DNA of 64,000 nt from Clostridiales bacterium. GTDB taxonomy: Bacteria > Bacillota > Clostridia > Lachnospirales > Lachnospiraceae. Shown here piece by piece: positions 475-14,928 of this stretch; the first letter of the stretch is position 1, and the number at the start of each line of letters is the position of its first letter. Under the pieces are notes generated by a model that searched no databases, was not told the origin of the DNA, and saw nothing but the letters and a program-made list of their open reading frames with translations. Position numbers and translations under genes: made by a program. Where the stretch lies: positions 1 to 64,000 of the forward strand of contig JAJQAA010000018.1 of NCBI GenBank assembly GCA_021204045.1, in the 5' to 3' direction.

Positions 475-521
475 AAAGGGTATTGCATGTTGATAATGAA
501 CTGTCATGCGATACCCTTTTT
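475..521. terminator. bidirectional intrinsic terminator between convergent genes
   Basis: aaagggtattgcatg ... catgcgatacccttttt inverted repeat with A-rich 5' and T-rich 3' flanks; overlaps the 3' end of the minus-strand TetR gene. Confidence 0.7.
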
Positions 522-1091
522 GGTGTATGGAATTCCTTCCTCTTTGATCTGCGGCAAATACCAGTCCGTAAACAGCTTCTGAATAATCTCCAGAAGGTCT
601 TCGTTCGATAATGTTTTTCTGTCCTGAAGATTGACCGCTACCGCTGAAAAAACGCCGGAAAGAAATATATTTGTTACAACTTTTTTTCTTGGCGTATCAG
701 CAATCTGCATTTCGGAATTTTCTGTTATATTTTCTCTTATCCTTCGAATGAAATGAGCACGATTTTCTTCCGACATCAGGACGGCGATACGATCCGGATT
801 TTTGTGGCAGCAGTTGATATAGGTCTCAAAAAACTGTCTGTTATAGGCAGCATTTTCTCTGAATTGTTCACGCAGCGCATTCTGTGTGTTGCGAAAGAAA
901 TCATCTTCGGCATATTCAATCAGCGCATAGATATCCTCAAAATAGCGGTAAAACGTCGTGCGGTTATATCCGGCCAGATTGGTAATCTCACGAATGGTAA
1001 TCTGGCGGATCCCTTTGATTTTGGCCAGCTGAAAAAAAGCCGTCAGGATGGCCTCTCTTGTAGCATCTGTAATTTCCGGTTGTTTATTCAT
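504..1091 (-). CDS. TetR/AcrR family transcriptional regulator
   Basis: MNKQPEITDATREAILTAFFQLAKIKGIRQITIREITNLAGYNRTTFYRYFEDIYALIEYAE is a classical TetR HTH; start chosen at the MNKQ Met of the longer ORF. Confidence 0.88.
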   Translation of the reverse strand: MNKQPEITDATREAILTAFFQLAKIKGIRQITIREITNLAGYNRTTFYRYFEDIYALIEYAEDDFFRNTQNALREQFRENAAYNRQFFETYINCCHKNPDRIAVLMSEENRAHFIRRIRENITENSEMQIADTPRKKVVTNIFLSGVFSAVAVNLQDRKTLSNEDLLEIIQKLFTDWYLPQIKEEGIPYTKKGIA

Positions 1092-1164
1092 AATACAGGT
1101 TCCCCTTCTGAAATTGTGGAGATAATGATGTCCACTGCAGCTGTATGGGTGGCATAATCGAATT

Positions 1165-1285
1165 GTACAACATATGTCGCGGGATGGCAAGCGCACATTT
1201 CCAATTATGCGACATTTGTCTTATATTGTTGCTTGATAAATGCCATGCAACCACATAAAATAGAGTGGTGCAACAAGTGTTGTAC
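1165..1285. promoter_or_regulatory. three candidate TetR-type dyad operators in the divergent intergenic region
   Basis: GTACAACA-TA-TGTCGCGG (1165-1182), ATGCGACA-TT-TGTCTTAT (1207-1224), GTGCAACA-AG-TGTTGTAC (1268-1285): shared 8-2-8 layout with an ACA-NN-TGT core; the 11-mer ATTGTACAACA (1162-1172) recurs inverted at 1278-1288. Confidence 0.5.
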
Positions 1286-1341: not shown

Positions 1342-1866
1342 GTGGAAAATAAGGCATTAGAGAATTTAATGACACGAAGGAGTGTCCGCAGCTTCAGCAG
1401 CCGTCCGGTAGAACAAGAAAAGCTGGACGCAATTCTGAAAGCGTCTACTTATGCGCCAAATGGTATGGGCAAGCAGTCGCCGGTGATTGTACTTGTCAAA
1501 TCTCCGGAAACAGTGAAAAAAATCAGCAGGATGAACGCTGCCGTGATTGGCAGAGAAATCGATCCCTTTTATGGCGCGCCGGTCGTTGCGGTCGTATTCG
1601 GCAACAAAGCGTCTGTCCCGACATGGTTTGAGGATGCCTGCCTGGCCGCAGGAAATCTTCTGAACGCGGCCCATGCGGTTGGTGTGGATTCCTGCTATGT
1701 TTACAGAGCAAAAGAAGTGTTTTCGTCCGCAGAAGGACTCGCGCTTCTGAAGGAATGGGGACTGGGGGATAACTATGTCGGCGTGGCAAACTGTGTTCTG
1801 GGATACCGCGACGGAGAGGCTCCGCAACCGGCGCCGCGTAAGGCTGATTACGTCCGTATCGTGTAA
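1342..1866 (+). CDS. nitroreductase family protein
   Basis: LENLMTRRSVRSFSSRPVEQEKLDAILKASTYAPNGMGKQSPVIVLV and C-terminal GVANCVLGYRDGEAPQPAPRK, typical of FMN nitroreductases; GTG start. Confidence 0.9.
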   Translation: MENKALENLMTRRSVRSFSSRPVEQEKLDAILKASTYAPNGMGKQSPVIVLVKSPETVKKISRMNAAVIGREIDPFYGAPVVAVVFGNKASVPTWFEDACLAAGNLLNAAHAVGVDSCYVYRAKEVFSSAEGLALLKEWGLGDNYVGVANCVLGYRDGEAPQPAPRKADYVRIV

Positions 1867-1916
1867 TCAGTGAATTGGGAAGTTTAAAAACGGAAAAGAA
1901 AAGCAGGAGGTCCCAC

Positions 1917-3044
1917 ATGAAGGGAAAGAAAAAATGGATTGTCGGCCTGGTCGTACTTATCCTGGTCGCGGTGATCGTGTATATCCGGGTATTGAAACCG
2001 GAGGAGACTGTCGAGATTGAGACGCGGCCGACCGTAGCCGTGGCGAATCCCCAGATCGGCGACATTGTTCTGTATACGGATCTGACCGGTACGGTGGAAC
2101 CGCAGTCGAAGGCCACGGTACAGGCGAAGATCGGCGGCGAGGTTCTGGAAATCTTTTTCCAGGCGGGCGATTATGTAGAGGCGGGGCAGGTGCTCTGCCG
2201 TATCGATTCGGATTCGCTGACGACGCTTCAGCTGCAGGTGGACGCGGCGGCGGTACAGCTGCGCAACGCCAGCAGTACGCTGGCACGTACGCGTGCGCTG
2301 TATGCGGATGGCTTTGCGTCCGACCAGTCGCTGGAGCAGGCGGAGGACTCCGCGGAGAGCGCGCAGATATCCTATGACAGCGCGAAGACGCAGTATGATC
2401 TGCAGCTGGAATATACGCAGGTGGCCGCGCCAATCAGCGGTTTGATAGAAGACCGCGGCATTGAGCTGCACGACCATATCAGCACGGATACCGAGATCTG
2501 TGTGATTTCCGGCCAGGAGCAGCTGCAGGTGAATTTCGGCGTCACGGAACGGATCCTGGGAAATCTTTCCGTGGGCGACGCGGTCATAGTTGCGAAAAGT
2601 GGTACGACTTATGAGGGGTATGTCTCTGAGCTGGGAACGAAAGTCAATTCCACGAGCGGCCTTTACGATGTGAAAGCGCTGCTTCCGGGAAGCAGCGGCC
2701 TGACCAATGGTATGCGTGTGACACTGACGGTGCTGCTGGATCGCGCCGAGGCCGCGATGACGATCCCGCTGGACGCGGTCAATTATGACGATGGTACGCC
2801 GTTTGTCTATCTCTATCAGGACGGTACGGCGGTGAAGACCGAGATCGAATCAGGGATCTATGATTCGGAAACCATGGAAGTGCTTTCCGGTCTTGGTATG
2901 GAAGACATGGTAATCACCAGCTGGAGCAATGAGCTGGCGGATGGCCAGGATGTACTGCTCGCGGACACGGCGAACTCAGATACAGAAAATGCTGCTGCCG
3001 ATACGGCTTCCGGCGAGAATGACGGGAAGGGGAATGCAGAATGA
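1917..3044 (+). CDS. efflux RND transporter periplasmic adaptor (membrane fusion) subunit
   Basis: N-terminal TM, lipoyl/barrel-sandwich halves (GTVEPQSKATVQAKIGGEVLEIFFQAGDYVEAGQVLCRID ... YTQVAAPISGLIEDRGIELHDHIS); RBS aggagg before ATG 1917. Confidence 0.9.
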   Translation: MKGKKKWIVGLVVLILVAVIVYIRVLKPEETVEIETRPTVAVANPQIGDIVLYTDLTGTVEPQSKATVQAKIGGEVLEIFFQAGDYVEAGQVLCRIDSDSLTTLQLQVDAAAVQLRNASSTLARTRALYADGFASDQSLEQAEDSAESAQISYDSAKTQYDLQLEYTQVAAPISGLIEDRGIELHDHISTDTEICVISGQEQLQVNFGVTERILGNLSVGDAVIVAKSGTTYEGYVSELGTKVNSTSGLYDVKALLPGSSGLTNGMRVTLTVLLDRAEAAMTIPLDAVNYDDGTPFVYLYQDGTAVKTEIESGIYDSETMEVLSGLGMEDMVITSWSNELADGQDVLLADTANSDTENAAADTASGENDGKGNAE

Positions 3045-6000
3045 TCAATCTGACAAAATTCGCCCTGCACCGCCCGGTCACGGTCATCCTCTGCCTGATT
3101 ACGATTGCCTATTTCGGATTGCAGGGCGTGATGGGAGCGAAAGTTGAGCTGACGCCGGAGATGGAGATGCCCATGCTGATAGCCTACACGGTCTACGCAG
3201 GAGCGAGCCCGGAGGATATCAATGACCTGATTTCCTTAAAGCAGGAGGACGCGGTATCGACGCTGGACAGCGTAGATACCTATTATACCTACGCGCAGGA
3301 AAATATGTGTCTGCTGATGCTGTCCTATGAGTATGGTACGAACCTGGATACGGCATATATTAATCTGAAAAAAGCGCTCGACAGTATTGCCAGCGATATG
3401 CCGGATGACGCGGAAGATCCGGTCATCATGGAGCTGGATATGAACTCGCAGGCGGTCGTCACACTGGCGATCGGCGGAAATGTGGGGACGAACCTTTATA
3501 CCTACGTGGACAATAACATTGTTCCCGAGCTGGAGAAGCTGAGCTCGGTCGGCGAGGTTTCCCTTGCCGGCGGCCAGTCGCAGTATATCCGCATCGAGCT
3601 GATCCCGGAGAAGCTTGCACAGTACAATTTAAGCCTGACGACGGTGGCTTCGCTGATCGGATCGGCAGATTTCACGGTTCCCGCCGGAAGCATTGATGTA
3701 GGCGATCAGGAACTCGATGTTTCGGTCAGCAGCGATTATGAGACGACCGAGAGCCTGAAGGATATCGTGCTGCCGCTGTCCGGGGGAGATGTGATCCGTC
3801 TTTCGGATATTGCCAATGTCTACGATGCGCTGGAGGACGCGGATTCCATCGGCCGTTACAACGGCGAGGACGTGATCTCGGTGAGCATCAAAAAGCAGCA
3901 GGACAGCACGGCGATCGAGGTTTCCGAGCAGGTAATGAAGGAGCTTGATAATATCCTTGCGGAAAACCCGGGACTTACGATCGATGTGGTCGACGACAAC
4001 AGCGAGATGATCACGCAGTCCATACAGAACGTATGGCAGACGATGATCATGGCGGTCATCCTCTCGATGCTGATCCTCTGGCTGTTCTACGGCGATCTGC
4101 GCGCCTCGTTTATCGTCGGCACGTCGATCCCGGTTTCGATCCTGCTCGCGCTGATCTGCATGAGCGGCATGGGATTTACATTGAACATGATCTCGCTGAC
4201 GTCGCTGGTACTTGGCGTCGGCATGATGGTGGATAACTCAATCAACGTCCTCGACGGCTGTTTCCGTGCCAAGGAGAAAGCGAAAGACTATTATACCGCG
4301 GCGGTCGAGGGCACGCAGACGATGATCGGCTCGATCACCGGCGGTACGGCGACGACCTGCGTTGTTTTTATCCCGCTGGCATTGCTTTCCGGTATCACCG
4401 GCCAGCTGTTTAAGCAACTGGGCTACACAATCTGTTTCTGCCTGATCGCGTCATTGTTCTCGGCGGTGATTATCGTGCCGCTGTGCTATCTGATGTGGCA
4501 CCCGCAGGAGCGGGATTCCGCACCGGTGGACCGGATTTTAAAGCGGTTTCAGGCGTGGTATCGGCGCACGATGCCAGGGGTAATCCCGAGGACGGGGCTG
4601 ATTTTCGCGTGTACGATCGGCCTGCTGATCCTCTCGTTTGCGATGGCCTCGCAGCTGTCCGTATCGCTGATGGTGACGCCGGATGAGGGCATCGTTGATA
4701 TGACAATCACGCTTCGGCCGGGACTGTCGGTAGACGCGGTCAACGATACGGTCTCGGAAGTGGAGCAACTGGTCGCTTCCGATCCGGATGTGGAGCATTA
4801 CCTGCTGACCTATGGAGACAGCGGTCTTAGCACCGGCGTCGGCAGCGACGCGACGCTGAGCGCCTATCTCTATGACGACCGCTCGATGTCAACGGACGAC
4901 AAGATGAATGAGTGGAGACATGAGATCGCGAAGATGCAGGATGTGACCGTCTCCATGGAGCAGGGAAGCACGACGCCTGCAAGTATGTCGAGCGGGGACG
5001 AGATTGAGATCGACCTGCAGGGCACGAATTACGACACGCTGAAAGACTGCGTGGATGACCTCGCGGATCAGCTGCGACGGCGTGAGGATGTATACCAGGT
5101 ACATAGTTCCGTCGAGAACGGCGCGCCGCTGGTCAAGGTATCGGTCGATCCGGTAATCGCGGAGGCGGAGGGGCTGACCCCGGCCAGTATCGGTTCTTCA
5201 ATCTACTATAATTTAAGTGGCGTGACGGCAACATCATTGCGTGTGAATGGCGAGGAGGTCGACGTCATTGTGGAGTTCGCCTCGGATAAATACGACACGA
5301 TCGATAAGCTGCAGACGATGATGATCACGACGGGCTCCGGCTCGACGCTGCCGCTGGAAGACCTGGCCGAGATCCATTATGAGGACAACCCGCAGCAGAT
5401 CATCCGCAAGGATAAGCGCTATCAGGTGAGCGTCACGATGCAGCCGCAGTCCGGTTTTGAGAAGACCGCGGAAGACGACGTCAACGATTTTGTCAATAAC
5501 AGCTGGGAGATGCCATCGGGTGTGGAGTTTGCGGAGAACTCCTATAATGAGATGATTTCCGAGGAGATCGGCGACCTGGCAAGCGCCCTGATTACCGGTA
5601 TTTTCCTGGTATTCATCGTCATGGGTATCCAGTTTGAGTCGCCGAAGTATTCGCTGATGGTCATGGCGACGATCCCGTTCAGCCTGATCGGCGCCTTTGG
5701 CCTGCTGTGGCTGGCGGACAGCCCGATCAGCATGGTTTCGATGCTGGGATTTCTGATGCTGATCGGTACAGTTGTGAACAACGGTATCCTCTACGTGGAT
5801 ACGGTCAACCAGATGCTGGCGGAGAACCGGCCGCTGGATGAGGCGCTGGTTGAGGCCGGCGCGATCCGTACGCGGCCGATGCTGATGACAACGCTGACGA
5901 CGATGATTGCAATGATGCCAAACGTCCTGGCTTACGGGCGTTCCGGCGTAATGATGCAGGGCCTGGCGCTGGTTGACGTCGGCGGACTGCTCATGGGCAC

Positions 6001-6088
6001 GGTGTTAACACTGCTGCTGTTGCCGACCTTCTACCGGTTCATCTATCTGCTGGGCAGGAAGCGTGTTGATCAACCGATGCTGGATTAA
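3041..6088 (+). CDS. efflux RND transporter permease (AcrB/hydrophobe efflux-like)
   Basis: 1015 aa; MINLTKFALHRPVTVILCLITIAYFGLQG, RND TM motifs (SLVLGVGMMVDNSINVLDGCFRAKE; GTVVNNGILYVDTVNQMLAENRPLDEALVEAGAIRTRPMLMTTLTTM); overlaps upstream gene. Confidence 0.95.
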   Translation: MINLTKFALHRPVTVILCLITIAYFGLQGVMGAKVELTPEMEMPMLIAYTVYAGASPEDINDLISLKQEDAVSTLDSVDTYYTYAQENMCLLMLSYEYGTNLDTAYINLKKALDSIASDMPDDAEDPVIMELDMNSQAVVTLAIGGNVGTNLYTYVDNNIVPELEKLSSVGEVSLAGGQSQYIRIELIPEKLAQYNLSLTTVASLIGSADFTVPAGSIDVGDQELDVSVSSDYETTESLKDIVLPLSGGDVIRLSDIANVYDALEDADSIGRYNGEDVISVSIKKQQDSTAIEVSEQVMKELDNILAENPGLTIDVVDDNSEMITQSIQNVWQTMIMAVILSMLILWLFYGDLRASFIVGTSIPVSILLALICMSGMGFTLNMISLTSLVLGVGMMVDNSINVLDGCFRAKEKAKDYYTAAVEGTQTMIGSITGGTATTCVVFIPLALLSGITGQLFKQLGYTICFCLIASLFSAVIIVPLCYLMWHPQERDSAPVDRILKRFQAWYRRTMPGVIPRTGLIFACTIGLLILSFAMASQLSVSLMVTPDEGIVDMTITLRPGLSVDAVNDTVSEVEQLVASDPDVEHYLLTYGDSGLSTGVGSDATLSAYLYDDRSMSTDDKMNEWRHEIAKMQDVTVSMEQGSTTPASMSSGDEIEIDLQGTNYDTLKDCVDDLADQLRRREDVYQVHSSVENGAPLVKVSVDPVIAEAEGLTPASIGSSIYYNLSGVTATSLRVNGEEVDVIVEFASDKYDTIDKLQTMMITTGSGSTLPLEDLAEIHYEDNPQQIIRKDKRYQVSVTMQPQSGFEKTAEDDVNDFVNNSWEMPSGVEFAENSYNEMISEEIGDLASALITGIFLVFIVMGIQFESPKYSLMVMATIPFSLIGAFGLLWLADSPISMVSMLGFLMLIGTVVNNGILYVDTVNQMLAENRPLDEALVEAGAIRTRPMLMTTLTTMIAMMPNVLAYGRSGVMMQGLALVDVGGLLMGTVLTLLLLPTFYRFIYLLGRKRVDQPMLD

Positions 6089-6108
6089 AGAAAGGCGGGG
6101 GAAACAAG

Positions 6109-6759
6109 ATGCCTACAGAACGGTTCAAACGGCTGCCCGCCGTGAAACGGGCAAAAATTCGGGCGGCGGCGCTCAGGGAATTTTCCAGAGTCCCTTACGA
6201 TAAAGTGTCGATCAACCAGATTATCTTAAACGCTAAGATTTCCCGCGGGAGTTTTTATACCTATTTTGAGGATAAACGGGACGTGGTGCAGTATCTGGCG
6301 GAGGATATCCGGGCGAAAATCCGGGATTACTGCGATGAGGCGCTGTACATAGAAAAAGGCGATTATTTCAAAATGATGATGGACGTCTTTGATTTTCTGA
6401 TCGGCCAGTCCCGGGAAACGCAGGAAATGATTGGACTGGCATACAATATCTTCTCCTATCAGGATAACATGGAGATCATCGGGTTTCCTGGATTGGAAAA
6501 GCCGTTCTGCGGTACGCAGGATAATGAGGCGTTAACCTGGATGTATGGCAAGCTTGATAAAAGCCGTCTGCGCACGAAAACCATAGAAGAATTTACAATA
6601 TTAGGTGGGATGAGCGCGCTCCTGATGATCGCTTCTATGAAGATGTTTTATGACAATCCGGAAAAGCTGGATGATATCCGGGAAAATTATATCAAAGGTT
6701 TGGAACTGCTCAAATATGGCGCACAGATACCGGAGACCCGAATAAAGCAAGGACTATAA
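6109..6759 (+). CDS. TetR/AcrR family transcriptional regulator
   Basis: AKIRAAALREFSRVPYDKVSINQIILNAKISRGSFYTYFEDKRDVVQYL TetR HTH. Confidence 0.9.
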   Translation: MPTERFKRLPAVKRAKIRAAALREFSRVPYDKVSINQIILNAKISRGSFYTYFEDKRDVVQYLAEDIRAKIRDYCDEALYIEKGDYFKMMMDVFDFLIGQSRETQEMIGLAYNIFSYQDNMEIIGFPGLEKPFCGTQDNEALTWMYGKLDKSRLRTKTIEEFTILGGMSALLMIASMKMFYDNPEKLDDIRENYIKGLELLKYGAQIPETRIKQGL

Positions 6760-6776
6760 TGAATGGAGTGACTAGG

Positions 6777-7946
6777 ATGAGACGAGGAAGACGTCTTTGC
6801 GGCGGCGGTCTGGCCCTGCTTCTGGCGGCGGCTGTGCCGCTTACCGTCATGGCCGCGACGCCGGAATTTGCCCGCACGGAGGAAGAATGGGCCCGGCTGC
6901 GCGACGATGTGATCGAGTATGACGAGCTCGAGGATCTGATTGCGGAATACAATGTTACCGTGCAGACAAATCAGCTTGACATGGCCAAATTCAAGCGGGA
7001 ATATGGCGATACGAAGGATGATATTTCGGATAAATACCGCGAGCTGGCGGATGAGATTTATTCCAGCGTCAGCTACCCGTCGACGGACGATTCGACCTAC
7101 GGCTACACGATCGCTTCCGTGCTGACAGCGGAGGTGCAGGCGAAAAACTTTGAGGAAGCGGCGGATGAGAACCTCGAGGACATCGAGATTATCTATCTGG
7201 ATTACAAGAGCGCGGAAAAGACGCTGGTGACCGTGGCGCAGACCAACATGATCAGTTACGAGAGCGGCCTGCTGCAGATCCGGCAGGCGGAGCTGGCCAA
7301 AAAACAGGCGGAGCTGGCTTATTCCAGCGCGCAGGCCAGCATGGCGACGGGCATGACGACAATGGTCGATGTGCTGTCGGCGCAGGAGACGATGCTGACG
7401 GCACAGCGGACGATCACATCCAGCCAGTCGAGCATCGAGAACATCCGCCAGAAGCTGCAGGTGATGCTGGGCTGGTCGTATGATGCCAGCCCCGAGATCG
7501 GCGCGGTGCCGTCCGCGGATGTAAGCCGCATCGCGGCGATGGATCCAGAAGCGGATAAGGAAGCGGCGCTAGCGAACAATTACACGCTCCAGGTCAACAA
7601 GCGCAAGCTGGAAAACGCGGTCAGCCCGGAGACGGTGGAGACCCTGCAGCGGACGATCGCCGACAATGAGCGCCAGATCGCGTCCTCGCTGGAGACCAGT
7701 TACCAGAGCGTGCTGACGGCGAAACTTTCCTATGACCAGGCGGCGGCCAGCCTGGAGCTGGAGCAGCGCAACCTGCGGCAAATTGCCGCGCAGTACGCGC
7801 AGGGTACGGCCAGCAGCATGGAGTACCAGAACCAGCAGTACACGACGCAGTCGGCCGAGTTGTCTCTGCAGATCGCGGACCTGTCGCTGCTGCAGGCGAT
7901 GGAGACCTACGACTGGGCGGTCAACGGCCTGGCCTCCGCCTCATAA
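6777..7946 (+). CDS. TolC-like family protein
   Basis: Signal peptide (LCGGGLALLLAAAVPLTVMA) and long alpha-helical heptads of OEP/TolC type (QIRQAELAKKQAELAYSSAQASMATGMTTMVDVLSAQETMLTAQ ... SLLQAMETYDWAVNGLA). Confidence 0.75.
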   Translation: MRRGRRLCGGGLALLLAAAVPLTVMAATPEFARTEEEWARLRDDVIEYDELEDLIAEYNVTVQTNQLDMAKFKREYGDTKDDISDKYRELADEIYSSVSYPSTDDSTYGYTIASVLTAEVQAKNFEEAADENLEDIEIIYLDYKSAEKTLVTVAQTNMISYESGLLQIRQAELAKKQAELAYSSAQASMATGMTTMVDVLSAQETMLTAQRTITSSQSSIENIRQKLQVMLGWSYDASPEIGAVPSADVSRIAAMDPEADKEAALANNYTLQVNKRKLENAVSPETVETLQRTIADNERQIASSLETSYQSVLTAKLSYDQAAASLELEQRNLRQIAAQYAQGTASSMEYQNQQYTTQSAELSLQIADLSLLQAMETYDWAVNGLASAS

Positions 7947-7964
7947 ACGATGGGAGGGAGCGGC

Positions 7965-9257
7965 ATGAAACGAAACATGAAAGCGGCTGCCGCCCGGGGA
8001 AGACTGGCAGCGTGGAAAGCAGCGTCAGTAATGGGATGGAAGGTGACGACAGTATGGAAATCAGCAATGACGGCTTTTCTGGCGGCAACACTGGTATTTT
8101 CCGGCGCGTTCCCGGCCTGGGCCTATTCTCCGATGGGCCCCGGGGCGAGCGAGAGCGAGTCGATGACGGCATATGATGCGGAGACGCAGGCGCGCCTGGA
8201 GGACAATACGCTGGAGTATGATGAGCTCCAGATGCGTGTGCACGGGTACAATCTGTCCATTTCTGAGGCTTGGAAGACCTACAACGATACGAAGGCGGAT
8301 TATGAAGCGATCATCACCGAGATGGAGAGCCAGTACCGCCTGATCAAGGAGACCGTGGAGGACTACAAGGACCTGGCAAAGCTGATGGCAGGCACGGCGA
8401 CCGCCGCGACGCTGCGGTCCGCGGGCAATACGCTGGACAGCACCTATGTCAGCACGATGCAGTCGTTCCGCGATTCCGTCGGCGAATGGGACACGAACCG
8501 GGTCAACACCTTTGCGATCCGCAAGGCGGAGCGCCAGGTGACCTCCGGGGCGCAGCAGGCGATGATCGGTTACGATACGATCTGCAGCAACATCGATACG
8601 CTGCAGACACTGGTAGCGCTTTACGAGGAGCAGGCCGCGATGACGGCGAGGCAGGCGGAGCTTGGCATGTCCACCGAGACGGAGGCACTGGACGCAAAAA
8701 ACAGCCTGCTGTCCGCGCAGTCGCAGCTGGCCACGCTGCAGGCACAGCAGGACAGCACGCGGCGCACGCTGCTGACGCTGGCCGGTTACGACCCGAACGG
8801 GGATACGGTGATCAGCCGCATCCCGCGGTTTGATATGAGCCGCCTGGGCGGCATGGATCTGGAGGCGGACACCTGGAAGGCGATCGGAAACAATTACACG
8901 CTGATCGATCAGCGCACCTCGGATGCCGGGGAGAGCACAGCGCAGATCGCCAACCGACTGGACCAGATCAATGAGGGTGATCAGAAGCTGGCGATCGAGA
9001 TGCAAAGCCTCTATGACGCGGTCATGGACCAGAAAGCAGCCTACGAGGCGGCAGCGATCGGGTTTTCGGCCGCGGAGACGACCTGGAAGACGGCGCAGAG
9101 CCAGTATCAGCTGGGGATGCTGTCAAAGCTGGGGTTGCTCAGTTCGGAAATCTCTTATTACCAGTCGCGGGCGTCGCTGGAATCGGCGAATCTGAGCCTG
9201 CTGCAGGCGATGGAAAGCTATGACTGGGGCGTGGCCGGGCTGGCGACGGTAGAGTAA
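7965..9257 (+). CDS. TolC-like family protein (paralogue of the preceding gene)
   Basis: Same repeat architecture and same ending (ANLSLLQAMESYDWGVAGLA vs LSLLQAMETYDWAVNGLA); signal-like N-terminus ending AFPAWA. Confidence 0.72.
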   Translation: MKRNMKAAAARGRLAAWKAASVMGWKVTTVWKSAMTAFLAATLVFSGAFPAWAYSPMGPGASESESMTAYDAETQARLEDNTLEYDELQMRVHGYNLSISEAWKTYNDTKADYEAIITEMESQYRLIKETVEDYKDLAKLMAGTATAATLRSAGNTLDSTYVSTMQSFRDSVGEWDTNRVNTFAIRKAERQVTSGAQQAMIGYDTICSNIDTLQTLVALYEEQAAMTARQAELGMSTETEALDAKNSLLSAQSQLATLQAQQDSTRRTLLTLAGYDPNGDTVISRIPRFDMSRLGGMDLEADTWKAIGNNYTLIDQRTSDAGESTAQIANRLDQINEGDQKLAIEMQSLYDAVMDQKAAYEAAAIGFSAAETTWKTAQSQYQLGMLSKLGLLSSEISYYQSRASLESANLSLLQAMESYDWGVAGLATVE

Positions 9258-9289
9258 ACGGACAGGATAGAAGAAAGGGCACGGTAAAA

Positions 9290-10015
9290 ATGGAAAATAA
9301 ATACAGCCAGTTAAAAGAATATATGGATCAGGCTGATAAAACCGTTGCTGTTACCGGCGCGGGGATTTCGTATCTTTACGGTATGCGCAGGCTGAAGCAG
9401 AGCGTTGGCAGGCTGAATGCCGGCCGGATTTTTTCCGCCTCGTATATCCGCAAAAACCCGGAAGAATTTTACAAAATCATGAAAGATGCCTTTCTGGACG
9501 CAACCTTTATCAAAGGGCCGGGGCCTGTCCATAAACAGCTTGCCATGCTGGAAAAGCAGGGAAAAATCTACGGTATCGTCACCCAGAACCTGGACTGTCT
9601 GCATACCATCGCCGGTTCTGAAAATGTGGTGGAATTTCAGGGAAGTTTTCGTGATAACATCTGTATTGAGTGCGGAAACCGTTATTATGACTACCGGATA
9701 TGGAACCAGGGACATATGCCGCGCTGTGAAAAGTGCGGCGCGCCTTTGATGCCGACAAGCTTTTACATGAACGCCGAAATCCGCGGCAAGGTTGCCGGAG
9801 AAAGCATGAAAAGAGCCGTTGATATGATTTCTGAGGCGGATCTGGTGATTGTCATTGGTACGACCGGCTTTCGCAGTGACGAATATCTGAGCCGGATGAA
9901 GGCGGATACAAAACTGGTGCAAATCAATCCGTCCGTGACGGAATTTGACCGGATTGCCGATTTGAATATACGGGCGGATGCGGCGGAGGTTTTTGATGCG
10001 GTTTTAAACAAATAG
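9290..10015 (+). CDS. SIR2 family (sirtuin-like) protein, catalytic His replaced by Gln
   Basis: VTGAGIS, GIVTQNLDCLHTIAGSENVVEFQG, Zn-ribbon CIECG...CEKCG, VIVIGTTG, VQINP. Canonical ELHG is EFQG. Confidence 0.88.
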   Translation: MENKYSQLKEYMDQADKTVAVTGAGISYLYGMRRLKQSVGRLNAGRIFSASYIRKNPEEFYKIMKDAFLDATFIKGPGPVHKQLAMLEKQGKIYGIVTQNLDCLHTIAGSENVVEFQGSFRDNICIECGNRYYDYRIWNQGHMPRCEKCGAPLMPTSFYMNAEIRGKVAGESMKRAVDMISEADLVIVIGTTGFRSDEYLSRMKADTKLVQINPSVTEFDRIADLNIRADAAEVFDAVLNK

Positions 10016-10027
10016 AGGAGTGTGCGG

Positions 10028-10762
10028 ATGATCCTTTTTAATGGAAGTCATGGCGTAGACCAGATACAGCAGTTATCCGATTATATCGATCATAGCAGCA
10101 GTATCGTCGCGGTTACAGGAGCCGGTATTTCCGTGGCCGGGGGAGGTATGACATACTGGCAAATGGCTCTTTCCAACCGCCGCGCCGGCGTCAGACCCGG
10201 ATCTGGGGGCAGTTACCAGTCATTTCTGCCAACCTATCTGGATAACATGTTTTCTTATCAGCCGAGTTTTGCCCACTATGCCCTGGCCGATCTGGAAAAG
10301 GAAGGCAAACTCATCGGTATTATCACAACAAATGTAGACTGTATGCATACGATAGCCGGTTCGAGGAATGTTGCCGAAATTCAGGGCAGTCTTCAGGTCA
10401 ATTGCTGCTCCGGATGCGGCAGACATTACGACAGCTATGAAATCTGGAAACAGGAAGAACTGCCTCTTTGTAAATCGTGTGGAGGAGAAATCCTGCCCTG
10501 GCCGATTTACAGTCATGTCGGCCTTTGGGAGGAAGACGTCAGAAAATCCCGGAGCTGGATTTCGAAAGCCGACCTGATTCTGGTCATCGGAACACAGGGA
10601 AATTATGGCGGCGTTTACTGGAATTACAGGAGAAAGGATGCCATCATTGTCCAGATCAATCCGGGGCATACCGGCTTTGACCATGCTGCGGCTCTGAATA
10701 TTCGGAGAGAGTCTGATGATGTATTCCAAAGGCTGCAGGAAAGGCGGAGAGAAAATGGCTGA
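10028..10762 (+). CDS. SIR2 family (sirtuin-like) protein, second tandem copy, catalytic His replaced by Gln
   Basis: VTGAGISVAGGGMTYW, GIITTNVDCMHTIAGSRNVAEIQG, CSGCG...CKSCG, ILVIGTQG, VQINPG. Confidence 0.87.
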   Translation: MILFNGSHGVDQIQQLSDYIDHSSSIVAVTGAGISVAGGGMTYWQMALSNRRAGVRPGSGGSYQSFLPTYLDNMFSYQPSFAHYALADLEKEGKLIGIITTNVDCMHTIAGSRNVAEIQGSLQVNCCSGCGRHYDSYEIWKQEELPLCKSCGGEILPWPIYSHVGLWEEDVRKSRSWISKADLILVIGTQGNYGGVYWNYRRKDAIIVQINPGHTGFDHAAALNIRRESDDVFQRLQERRRENG

Positions 10763-11819
10763 ACAGGGAACAAACCGTGAAAACATGGAATTATCGGAAG
10801 AAGAACGGTTAAAGCAGCTGGCCGCGCAGATAAGGGCAGCGCAATACCAGGGCCTTTCCGAAGAAGAAATTCAGGAAAAAGAGCGCCAGCAGGAACTGCG
10901 CAGGAAAGCGAATATCGCGATACTGGAACACTCGCTGAGCATTCTGGACCAGGGCTGCTATGAAAAAACAGGGCGGAATGTAAGACTGAATTTTTCCGGG
11001 AAACAGATGCGGGAAGTACAGGTATTTCTGCCGGATGATATTGATGCGCTGCAAACAGAGGCAGATGGATGCCTTTTCGCAGAGAACAAGGAAGATCAGA
11101 CGCGGAATACATCCTGCACTTTTGGCTGTGAGAATATCGATGCACTTGCATTTGCGCAGAAAAAATATTATTATTTAAAAGAAGAGGGAGCGTCTGCTCC
11201 CCGTATCCTTGTCCTGAACCTTGCAAGCGCCACGCATCCGGGCGGGCACACCCGGGAGGGCGCCAGCGCGCAGGAAGAGGATCTCTGCCGCAGGACGTCT
11301 CTTCTTCTGTCGCTGGAAAGCGAGGACGCGAAGCGATATTACGAATACAATAATGAGCGAAAGTCGCGCATGGGTTCCGATGGCGTTATACTGTCCCCCA
11401 ATGTGGAAGTAATCAAGGACACTTCCGCCGAGACGCTTTCCGAGCCGTTCCCGATCTCGGTTATGAGCTGCGCGGCGCCTATGGTACGCCTGGGACTGGA
11501 GGGCATGTCACAGCAGGAATATGAGACGATGTTGTATAAGCGCATACGGGGGATGCTTCTGGTTGCCGCGTCGCAAAATTTCCGCCATCTGGTTCTGGGA
11601 GCGTTTGGGTGTGGCGTGTACGGTAACGATGCGGCCGTTGTCTCGGATCTGTTTCATTATGTGATACAGGATTTTTCTTACGGTGGAAAAGATAGTTCCC
11701 GGTTATTTGATTCCATCGATTTCGCTGTCCTGTGCGGGGCGGATAACGACTACAATTACAGGCAATTTTGCAGGAATTTTTCCCCGGACGGAGAAAATCT
11801 GGTGAAGAAATTCAGATAA
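10755..11819 (+). CDS. TIGR02452-type / microbial PARG-like macrodomain protein
   Basis: VLNLASATHPGGHTREGASAQEEDLCRRTSLLLSLE (PARG-type QEE loop), SVMSCAAPMVRL, FRHLVLGAFGCGVYGNDAAVVSDLF; 8-bp overlap with upstream sirtuin gene. Confidence 0.85.
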   Translation: MAEQGTNRENMELSEEERLKQLAAQIRAAQYQGLSEEEIQEKERQQELRRKANIAILEHSLSILDQGCYEKTGRNVRLNFSGKQMREVQVFLPDDIDALQTEADGCLFAENKEDQTRNTSCTFGCENIDALAFAQKKYYYLKEEGASAPRILVLNLASATHPGGHTREGASAQEEDLCRRTSLLLSLESEDAKRYYEYNNERKSRMGSDGVILSPNVEVIKDTSAETLSEPFPISVMSCAAPMVRLGLEGMSQQEYETMLYKRIRGMLLVAASQNFRHLVLGAFGCGVYGNDAAVVSDLFHYVIQDFSYGGKDSSRLFDSIDFAVLCGADNDYNYRQFCRNFSPDGENLVKKFR

Positions 11820-11856
11820 ATCGAGAATCTGCAATGTATTCTGGAAGGTGTATGAA

Positions 11857-12156
11857 ATGCTGATCCATATTTTGAAAGCCTGGTTAAAATGGCGCAGGGA
11901 CTGGGATTCCTTGTGCAACCGCTGCGGAAAGTGTTGTTATGCGCGTTCGCTTTGGACAAAAGGGCAGGTAGTGGTTCATTATGACAGCCCGTGTGAAAAT
12001 CTGGATCAAGAAACGCACCTGTGCAGAATTTATAAAGACCGTTTGCGCAAATGCGGAAACTGCGGAAAGGTAAATTTGCTCACAGCACTGTTTCATCCGC
12101 TCCTGCCAAACGACTGCGCTTACCGGCGGACGTTCCGTCTGTGGGATACCAAGTGA
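11857..12156 (+). CDS. YkgJ family cysteine-cluster (CxxCxxCC-type) protein
   Basis: CNRCGKCCYARSL ... CENLDQETHLCRIYKDRLRKCGNCG; Zn/Fe-binding CxxCxxCC pattern. Confidence 0.8.
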   Translation: MLIHILKAWLKWRRDWDSLCNRCGKCCYARSLWTKGQVVVHYDSPCENLDQETHLCRIYKDRLRKCGNCGKVNLLTALFHPLLPNDCAYRRTFRLWDTK

Positions 12157-12196
12157 TATACATAAGAAATAATCTGAAGACTGGAAGAGGATAAAG

Positions 12197-13555
12197 ATGG
12201 AAACAACAAAAAAACTGGATGTCTTTGAAAATACACTGATACCGAAAGCAGTAATGCAGCTGTCGCTGCCTATGGTTATGAGTTCGCTTGTGATGGTACT
12301 GTACAGCCTGACAGACACCTACTTTGTAGGAATGCTCAACAATCCCGTCCAGAATGCCGCGGTTACCCTGGCCGCGCCGGTGCTGCTGGCCTTTATCGCG
12401 GTAAATAACCTGTTCGGCGTCGGCTCCTCCAGCATGATGAGCCGCGCGATGGGGGCAAAGAATTACGATGTTGTATATCACAGCTCGGCATTCGGTTTTT
12501 ACTGTTCATTATTTTGCGGCATACTCTTTTCGCTTGTATGCATTGTTGTACAAAATCCGCTTTTAAACCTGATTGGAGTGGATGATATTACCCGGCAGGC
12601 CACGCTGGAATACATGACATGGACGGTTTTCTGCGGTGCGACGCCGGCTATCCTGAACGTGGTAATGGCGTTTCTTGTGCGCGCGGAAGGCGCGTCTCTC
12701 CACGCAAGCATCGGCACAATGACCGGCTGTATTCTGAACATGATTCTGGATCCGTTTTTCATTCTGCCGCAGTTCCTTAACATGGGCGCCGCAGGCGCCG
12801 GCCTAGCGACATTTTTGTCCAACTGTGTGGCCTGCATCTATTTCTTCGTGCTGCTGTATGTAAAACGGAAAAATACCTTTGTCTGTCTGAATCCAAAGAT
12901 GATTTCATTTGAAAAATCACTCGTGCTGAACATCTGCGGTGTGGGAGTGCCTGCGGCAATACAGAACCTGCTGAACGTGACAAGCATGACGATCCTTAAC
13001 AACTTCACCGCTGGCTATGGCGCGGATGCCGTAGCGGCCATGGGCATAGCGCAGAAGATCAATATGGTGCCGGTACAGGTTTGTATGGGCTTCTCTCAGG
13101 GAGTCATGCCACTGATCAGCTACAATTATACTTCCGGCAACCGCAAACGGATGAAGGACTGCATTTTTTATACCATAAAACTCATTCTTCCTGTATTGAT
13201 TCTGGCCACAGCCGTATTCTGTATTTTTTCCAGCGGCCTGATAACGCTGTTTATGGAGAATGAAGTTATCGTTACCCACGGCACCCGTTTCCTGCGCGGC
13301 TTCAGTCTATCGATCCCGTTTTTGTGCATGGACTTTCTCGCAGTCGGTGTATTTCAGGCCATTGGACGCGGCAGATCGGCACTGGTGTTTGCAATACTGC
13401 GCAAGATTATTTTGCAGGTGCCTGCGCTTTTTCTCCTGGACTATCTGTTCCCGCTCTATGGGCTGGCATATTCGCAGTTTACTGCGGAGCTGGTGCTGGG
13501 CATCTGCGGATCGGTTATGATAGTGCGTATATGCAATGAAAAGCCATCAAAATAA
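12197..13555 (+). CDS. MATE family efflux transporter
   Basis: LPMVMSSLVMVLYSLTDTYFVGML ... MGIAQKINMVPVQVCMGFSQGVMPLISYNYTSGNRKRMK; 12-TM MATE pattern. Confidence 0.93.
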   Translation: METTKKLDVFENTLIPKAVMQLSLPMVMSSLVMVLYSLTDTYFVGMLNNPVQNAAVTLAAPVLLAFIAVNNLFGVGSSSMMSRAMGAKNYDVVYHSSAFGFYCSLFCGILFSLVCIVVQNPLLNLIGVDDITRQATLEYMTWTVFCGATPAILNVVMAFLVRAEGASLHASIGTMTGCILNMILDPFFILPQFLNMGAAGAGLATFLSNCVACIYFFVLLYVKRKNTFVCLNPKMISFEKSLVLNICGVGVPAAIQNLLNVTSMTILNNFTAGYGADAVAAMGIAQKINMVPVQVCMGFSQGVMPLISYNYTSGNRKRMKDCIFYTIKLILPVLILATAVFCIFSSGLITLFMENEVIVTHGTRFLRGFSLSIPFLCMDFLAVGVFQAIGRGRSALVFAILRKIILQVPALFLLDYLFPLYGLAYSQFTAELVLGICGSVMIVRICNEKPSK

Positions 13556-13581
13556 TATTATACTAAAAGAGGATAATTCGT

Positions 13582-14928
13582 GTGAAAGAGAAGGATACGC
13601 GTTCGCGCAATGAGCAGATGTTGAATGACCCGGTGGAGCAGATTATTCCAAGGCTTGCGGGGCCGACGATTATATCCATGCTGATTACTGCCATTTATAA
13701 TATGGCGGATACGTTTTTTGTGAGCCAGCTCGGCACATCCGCTTCCGGTGCGGTTGGGATCGTTTTCTCGGCGATGGCGATGATTCAGGCGTTTTCATTT
13801 ATGATCGGGATGGGAGCGGGCAATAATATTTCCCGTTTGCTCGGGAAAGGCGAGGAAGAAGAGGCGAAGAAATACGCGTCGGTCGCCTGGTTTACCGGGT
13901 TTGGGTTCGGATGCGTGGTATCGCTGGTCGGACTGACTCTGATGGAACCCATCGTTATGCTGCTGGGATCCACGGATACGATCGCCCCTTACGCCGCGGA
14001 TTATGCACGGTATATTTTTCTGGCGGCGCCGTTTATGATATGTTCGCTGGTTATGAATAATCTGCTTCGGTTCCAGGGGCTGACCGTTTACTCTATGGTC
14101 GGGATCACGGCGGGCGGTATTTTAAATATGATCCTGGATCCGATCCTCATTTTCGGCGTTGGGTTGGGAACGATGGGAGCCGGTGTTGCCACCGGATTTT
14201 CCCAGTTCGTCAGTTTCTGCATTCTGCTGTTTATGTGCAACACCCATAAAGACGTGATCCGCATTACGCCGCGCAATTTCCGTCCGTCTTTGAAAATATA
14301 CGGGAGCATCCTGTATACAGGCGCGCCATCCCTGGCCAGGCAGGGAATTGCCAGCGTCGCAACCGTGATGCTCAATTCGATTGCCGGAACATACAGCGAT
14401 GCGGCGGTCGCGGCGATGTCGATCGTCTCCCGCTTTACCATGTTCATCAACTCCGTCATCGTCGGATTCGGGCAGGGCTTCCAGCCGGTCTGCGCGTTTA
14501 ATTTCGGTGCGAAAAAATATGACCGGGTCCGGCAGTCCTTCTGGTTCTGCGTGAAGGTAATGACGGTCACGCTGCTCATACTATGCGGCATTGCCATGCT
14601 CTTCTCCGGCAATATCATCGCGGTCTTCCGCCGGGATGATGCGGAAGTCATCGCGATCGGCACCTTTGCGATGCGCGCCCAGCTCATCACCATGCCGCTC
14701 TGGGGGTACTATATCATGTGCAACATGTTCTCCCAGTCAATCGGATATGGCTTTCGTTCTTCCATTATATCCTGTGCGAGACAGGGACTTTTCCTGATCC
14801 CTGTGCTGGCGATCCTGCCGCATTTCTTTGGACTTCGCGGATTGCAGCTTTCCCAGCCGGTATCGGATGTACTCGCATTTATACTGGCTTATGTACTGGC
14901 AAGCGGGATTTTAAATGAACTGGAATAA
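13582..14928 (+). CDS. MATE family efflux transporter (second tandem copy)
   Basis: LAGPTIISMLITAIYNMADTFFVSQLGTSASGAVG ... GFGQGFQPVCAFNFGAKKYDRV; GTG start after RBS. Confidence 0.93.
   Translation: MKEKDTRSRNEQMLNDPVEQIIPRLAGPTIISMLITAIYNMADTFFVSQLGTSASGAVGIVFSAMAMIQAFSFMIGMGAGNNISRLLGKGEEEEAKKYASVAWFTGFGFGCVVSLVGLTLMEPIVMLLGSTDTIAPYAADYARYIFLAAPFMICSLVMNNLLRFQGLTVYSMVGITAGGILNMILDPILIFGVGLGTMGAGVATGFSQFVSFCILLFMCNTHKDVIRITPRNFRPSLKIYGSILYTGAPSLARQGIASVATVMLNSIAGTYSDAAVAAMSIVSRFTMFINSVIVGFGQGFQPVCAFNFGAKKYDRVRQSFWFCVKVMTVTLLILCGIAMLFSGNIIAVFRRDDAEVIAIGTFAMRAQLITMPLWGYYIMCNMFSQSIGYGFRSSIISCARQGLFLIPVLAILPHFFGLRGLQLSQPVSDVLAFILAYVLASGILNELE

Follow-up and report, generated by a model that had tools for sequence, protein, structure and literature searches.

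Paired glutamine-type sirtuins and a PARG-like protein form a conserved gene module in gut-type Clostridia that looks like a reversible protein-tagging switch

Introduction

The catalytic histidine of sirtuins serves the deacylation step of the reaction. In the one characterised class that carries glutamine instead, class M (SirTM), the proteins are ADP-ribosyltransferases with no deacylase activity and the glutamine is essential (PMC4518038, PMC11490716); transferase activity alone has been attributed to SirTMs and apparently to no other sirtuins (PMC11490716). Arg192 of SirTM contacts Gln137 (PMC4518038). Class M sirtuins, of the S. aureus / S. pyogenes type but also encoded in minimal operons, are paired with a Zn-Macro protein as eraser, and extended-type operons include GcvH-L and LplA2.

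Here we describe a locus from a Lachnospiraceae genome (assembly GCA_021204045.1) in which two diverged Sir2-family genes, denoted SirA and SirB, are followed by a gene for a PARG-like protein. The window, i.e. the whole stretch of DNA analysed, covers 64,000 nucleotides of contig JAJQAA010000018.1. Among the papers searched, none joins TIGR02452 with a sirtuin, and none combines nitroreductase, sirtuin, ADP-ribosyl and operon.

Results and discussion

Sequence features of SirA and SirB

SirA (9290..10015, + strand, 241 codons) and SirB (10028..10762, + strand, 244 aa) both match PF02146 (5e-25 and 3e-19, respectively), with Pfam SIR2 scores of 88.8 and 69.9 bits against a cut-off of 24. The start of SirB is the ATG at 10028, with a GTG at 10022 as a further possible start. 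In agreement with the preliminary description, which also had the gene coordinates, the reading frames and the 8 bp overlap with the third gene right, both proteins keep GAGIS, the TxNxDCxHTIAG motif and the four cysteines of the Zn ribbon. The position of the canonical catalytic histidine is occupied by Gln117 in SirA (VEFQG, codon 9638-9640) and by Gln119 in SirB (AEIQG, codon 10382-10384). This exchange, pointed out from the window alone, extends to all relatives in the alignment: glutamine was found in 79/79 SirA and 91/91 SirB sequences, as compared to histidine in 28/28 canonical sirtuins taken from the same bacterial family as the source. The relatives of both proteins also share GAGIS, N100, D102 and the four Zn cysteines, and over 170 SirA/SirB sequences the Gln, Asn, Asp, Cys and Zn ligands are invariant. 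The residue following NxD is an invariant Cys in both paralogues, where canonical sirtuins carry Gly and SirTM carries His.

The PDFR segment had been considered missing; instead it is replaced, by MRRLK in SirA, which aligns without a gap, and by GxTYx in SirB. The exchanged loop could alter or abolish catalysis. The canonical substrate strand (VVxFGE/VVLYEE) is likewise lost and replaced in both proteins, as judged from the alignment. The best PDB folds for the SirA model (pLDDT 89.5) are sirtuins, with Sir2Tm as the top match, and Sir2Tm and Sir2Af are the PDB entries that the pair matches best in sequence and fold. SirA and SirB resemble the canonical deacylases (CobB/Sir2Tm) in overall fold, GAGIS, TxNxD, Zn ribbon and an identity of ~31–33%, but differ from them by the lack of the catalytic His, the PDFR segment and the VVxFGE-type strand, and by the Cys after NxD. 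Retention of the NAD pocket does not in itself prove catalysis. SirB is duplicated in many loci, and in some there is a third copy that has diverged further. In a few loci a third sirtuin type, ~50% identical to SirB, was observed just 3′ of the PARG or SirB gene (L094 10342-11052, reading AEIQG; L072 4168-4878; L074 2714-3424).

Relation to class M sirtuins

The mean identity of SirA and SirB is 31–33% to canonical sirtuins and 19–21% to SirTM. In two trees SirA and SirB appeared as sister clades with joint support of 89/86 and 99/100, and SirTM was placed apart (100/100); a tree with SirA, SirB and SirTM on one side, without the canonical sirtuins, was not rejected (p-AU 0.48), and the branches involved are long. 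The Gln may accordingly have arisen either once or twice. The position of Arg192 holds Arg in 10/10 SirTM sequences of the alignment, Phe in SirA and mostly Leu in SirB. The source genome contains three Pfam SIR2 matches, one of which is a canonical sirtuin. A separate class M locus on contig C21 (L131, ~4454-8227) encodes Rrf2, FMN reductase, Zn-Macro and SirTM, and this SirTM carries TTNVD...TQGD and, unlike SirA and SirB, gives no match to the Pfam SIR2 family PF02146. As this SirTM/Zn-Macro locus is distinct from the module, the source genome carries both Gln-type sirtuin systems. As noted early on, lipoyl genes are absent from the module neighbourhood; in the source genome GcvH is located on contigs C63/C53 and LplA-type genes on C15/C63.

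The likeness to class M comprises the sirtuin fold, the exchange of His for Gln and the absence of a canonical PDFR loop (PMC4518038, PMC11490716), as well as an operonic partner with an ADP-ribose hydrolase fold and a link to flavin oxidoreductases and, in the source genome, Rrf2. In contrast to class M, SirA and SirB form a separate, well-supported clade of two paralogous sirtuins without Arg192, their eraser is of the PARG/TIGR02452 type rather than Zn-Macro, and their operon lacks the GcvH-L and LplA2 of extended-type class M operons. Judged by these features, the SirA/SirB system is not a class M SirTM/Zn-Macro system; it was not filed as such because Arg192 and an operonic Zn-Macro partner were both looked for and neither was found in the module. 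Still, we consider it reasonably probable that the SirA/SirB-PARG system works like SirTM/Zn-Macro.

The PARG-like protein

The third gene (10755..11819, + strand) overlaps that of SirB by 8 bp and encodes a protein of 354 aa, composed of a helical N-terminal extension and a macro/PARG fold. The proposed identity as a TIGR02452/PARG-like protein with a QEE loop holds, as the scores exceed the cut-offs for both TIGR02452 (152 bits versus 50) and PF10021 PARG_cat_microb (92.4 bits versus 23.5) and the QEE motif is found at Q173-E174-E175 (11271-11279). The motif is invariant in 39 aligned PARG-like rows, as is the GCG loop; in the PARG signature, His or Gln stands in place of the third Gly, after PGG. 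In both sequence and fold, the PDB entries closest to it are the PARGs of T. curvata (3sig; TM 0.79–0.80 by target) and D. radiodurans (5zdb). With these bacterial PARGs the protein has PF10021, TIGR02452, QEE, the GCG loop and the fold in common, and it differs from known ones in the ~120-residue helical N-terminal part, in PGG[HQ] for GGG and in its genetic tie to sirtuins. The model has low confidence in the region of the active-site loop (pLDDT <50 at residues 157–186) and was therefore not used to judge the geometry of the active site. A genome search identified this protein as the only TIGR02452 protein in the source genome. The PARG-like protein probably removes ADP-ribose tags.

Conservation of the gene set

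Scanning the GTDB species genomes (~85,000) with a profile returned 203 relatives, of which the best 80 were taken as loci. SirB is located directly 3′ of SirA in 74/78 loci, and a PARG gene follows ≤3 kb downstream in 46/54. The three genes are under purifying selection, with a median dN/dS of 0.086 for SirA, 0.116 for SirB and 0.139 for PARG. Across 56 loci, the distances of SirA are correlated with those of PARG (r = 0.81), in part because of shared descent. Read from sequence, the SirA-SirB-PARG trio is a conserved operon. The preliminary description had made its proposal depend on the trio recurring in other genomes; it is kept, and kept under selection, in dozens of them.

Deviating arrangements were also observed. 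In L034, on the same contig as L112, the gene order is PARG-SirA-SirB, beside groESL. In L036 (4725-7545) a decayed copy comprises, besides a PARG-like gene that is intact, a piece of groEL and a SirA truncated near residue 124, and the tail of the truncated SirA resembles part of the adenylation gene described below. The decayed copy reads as a sign of recombination within the cassette.

Gene neighbourhood

In the window, the trio is part of a run of 12 co-directional genes (1342-14928) with gaps of ≤41 bp. The run opens with a nitroreductase (1342..1866, + strand; PF00881, 3e-16), which has a promoter-like site (1233-1261) on its 5′ side, and continues on the + strand with HlyD (1875-3044), an RND pump (3041-6088), a TetR gene (6109-6759) and two OEP/TolC-like genes (6759-7946 and 7950-9257). 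The genes from HlyD to the OEP pair (1875..9257) are all ≤33 bp from one another and from SirA. SirA, SirB and the PARG-like gene are followed by a CxxCxxCC / YcgN-like cysteine protein of 99 aa (11857..12156, + strand), which scores 19.3 bits for PF03692, below the cut-off of 23, and then directly by two MATE efflux pumps (12197..14928, + strand; PF01554) after gaps of 41 and 27 bp. As the genes are co-directional with such short gaps, and a terminator scan lists no site in the gaps of the 1342-14928 run, the run is likely one transcript; a further promoter-like site (13536-13564) lies 5′ of the second MATE gene. A scan of the first 20 kb of the window for structured RNA gave no hit. Divergent to the run, a TetR regulator (504..1196, − strand; PF00440) resembles the TetR genes beside the module copies L116 and L034.

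The presence of the RND pump, HlyD and two OEP genes directly 5′ of SirA is unusual for an apparent Lachnospiraceae genome, a lineage generally thought to be without an outer membrane.

Several of these neighbours recur, and they extend the module beyond the preliminary description to nitroreductase, flavodoxin, Rrf2/TetR regulators, the CxxCxxCC protein and efflux pumps. Among the 52 loci with enough flank, nitroreductases (PF00881, PF14512) and/or flavodoxin (PF12682) are found upstream of SirA in 37 and a divergent Rrf2 regulator (PF02082) in 24; the window copy has TetR instead of Rrf2 and is without flavodoxin. The CxxCxxCC protein, nearby in 18/47 loci, is a recurrent partner of the module and a candidate for its target or for a redox partner. 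ABC exporters, groESL and Lon adjoin some module copies, and SDR genes also occur in this setting. Individual cases are a Lon-type protease gene beside SirA or between SirA and SirB (L049 8481-10805, L050 9293-11563) and groEL or groESL near L034, L099 and L102. A stand-alone AMP-binding (adenylation) enzyme was also observed ≤5 kb 3′ of SirA in 21/54 loci with enough flank, often accompanied by GNAT and Pfam Esterase (e.g. L046 10503-12438, L068 11290-13982).

Distribution

The best 80 of the 203 relatives all belong to MAG series of gut-type Clostridia. A koala origin is documented only for two loci, L086 and L098, which are named for the koala Zagget; the koala is a eucalypt feeder (PMC5697889). 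The remaining genome series resemble those from the koala gut. The motif DC[LM]HTIAG was detected in 1/399 genomes of the phylum, namely the source genome itself, and in 9/395 genomes of the order, spread over three families, and it is absent from a near-complete genome of the same genus. Carriers have up to 9 copies of the motif per genome. The patchiness, together with the varied flanks, suggests transfer or loss, and the several copies per genome in a series that includes koala gut genomes suggest a link to a toxin-rich diet. Carriage by phages and plasmids was considered and rejected: the IMG/VR scan contained no relative and phage matches to the PARG-like protein are remote, and plasmid matches are <60% identical and, among the matches listed, annotated as deacylases or unannotated.

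Proposed function and alternative readings

The reading we favour, and hold to be rather probable, is that a partner in the module or a cell target receives ADP-ribose from SirA and SirB, that the PARG-like protein reverses this, and that redox-active or toxic chemicals induce the system. SirA and SirB would cleave NAD and pass ADP-ribose to the target. They probably complement each other in this, as nearly every SirA is followed by one or two SirB paralogues. The mark would then be taken off by the PARG-like enzyme, and induction by redox-active or toxic plant chemicals would proceed via the Rrf2 or TetR regulator. By analogy to GcvH-L as the target of SirTM, the substrate is most likely a protein partner within the module, i.e. 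the CxxCxxCC protein, flavodoxin or nitroreductase.

This reading is supported by the kept NAD pocket and nicotinamide-release residues (GAGIS, N, D) next to the loss of the acyl-lysine strand, by the invariant Gln, by the PARG/macro fold with its intact QEE, by conserved linkage and purifying selection, and by the similar layout of the SirTM locus in the source genome (Rrf2 / FMN reductase / Zn-Macro / SirTM). Conversely, the absence of Arg192, the changed third Gly of the PARG signature, the occurrence of the CxxCxxCC protein in only 18/47 loci, and a window copy with TetR rather than Rrf2 and without flavodoxin count against it. The preliminary description had suggested a rewired writer/writer/eraser unit, with SirA and SirB as possibly two writers of different specificity or a heterodimer. 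A sirtuin-based reversible ADP-ribosylation unit apart from the lipoyl operon is strengthened by the conserved trio, the lost deacylase features and the kept NAD residues; that it is a rewired SirTM is not shown, given the clade of its own, the higher identity to canonical sirtuins, the absence of Arg192 and the coexisting SirTM locus.

The genomic setting of nitroreductases, RND, ABC and MATE pumps, SDR genes and TetR/Rrf2 regulators would also suit Gln-type sirtuins whose substrate for ADP-ribosylation, or for another use of NAD, is a xenobiotic or a signalling nucleotide, with the PARG-like protein recycling or degrading the product of this detoxification or messenger pathway. Arr, which acts on rifamycin, offers a parallel of the detoxification type. 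The several copies per genome and the two loci from the koala, a eucalypt feeder (PMC5697889), point the same way. However, SirTM, the nearest Gln-type precedent, modifies a protein, and a hydrolase partner would undo detoxification. To our knowledge there is no small-molecule ADP-ribosylating sirtuin, and we regard this reading as rather unlikely.

It is quite improbable that SirA and SirB are still NAD-dependent deacylases that use another residue as base: the catalytic His, PDFR and the VVLYEE strand are invariantly lost, and an intact canonical sirtuin is encoded elsewhere in the source genome. What speaks for retained deacylation is the overall identity to canonical deacylases of 31–33%, the best PDB sequence and fold matches to Sir2Tm and Sir2Af, and the known activity of macrodomains in hydrolysing O-acyl-ADP-ribose, which the PARG-like protein would clear in this case.

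One or both sirtuins could also lack catalysis and serve as sensors of NAD or ADP-ribose, or as regulatory subunits controlling the other sirtuin or the PARG-like enzyme, in line with a paralogous pair with diverged loops, the extra SirB copies and the absence of Arg192. Sensors usually relax active-site residues of this kind, whereas the nicotinamide-release Asn and Asp and the Gln are invariant in every copy of both paralogues, and we give this option little credence. A toxin–antitoxin or anti-phage unit acting via NAD depletion or ADP-ribosylation, as the patchy distribution and several copies per genome might suggest, is highly improbable, as the four proteins compared with PADLOC-DB have no match there, no relative was present in the IMG/VR scan, and the neighbours are stress and efflux genes rather than defence islands.

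Returning to the reversible transfer of ADP-ribose to a protein, a bolder version may be put forward, albeit as an unlikely one. The module would represent another class of ADP-ribosylating sirtuins, the second after SirTM and assembled independently, in which SirA and SirB form an obligate pair. Its ADP-ribose product, which could be short polymers or marks linked to cysteines of the CxxCxxCC protein, would be erased by a PARG-type enzyme, and the system would have spread as a xenobiotic-stress switch through the gut Clostridia of a host that feeds on eucalypts.

Conclusions

The gene content gives the module the appearance of a new switch for reversible protein tagging under chemical stress. 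If this is true, a Gln-type clade besides class M, in which the sirtuins are paired, the eraser is of another family and there is no lipoyl target, would demonstrate that the conversion of sirtuins to transferases recurs, and that the coupling of a sirtuin with an ADP-ribosylhydrolase recurs as well. It would also provide a tractable system for the role of ADP-ribosylation in anaerobic gut bacteria under chemical stress.
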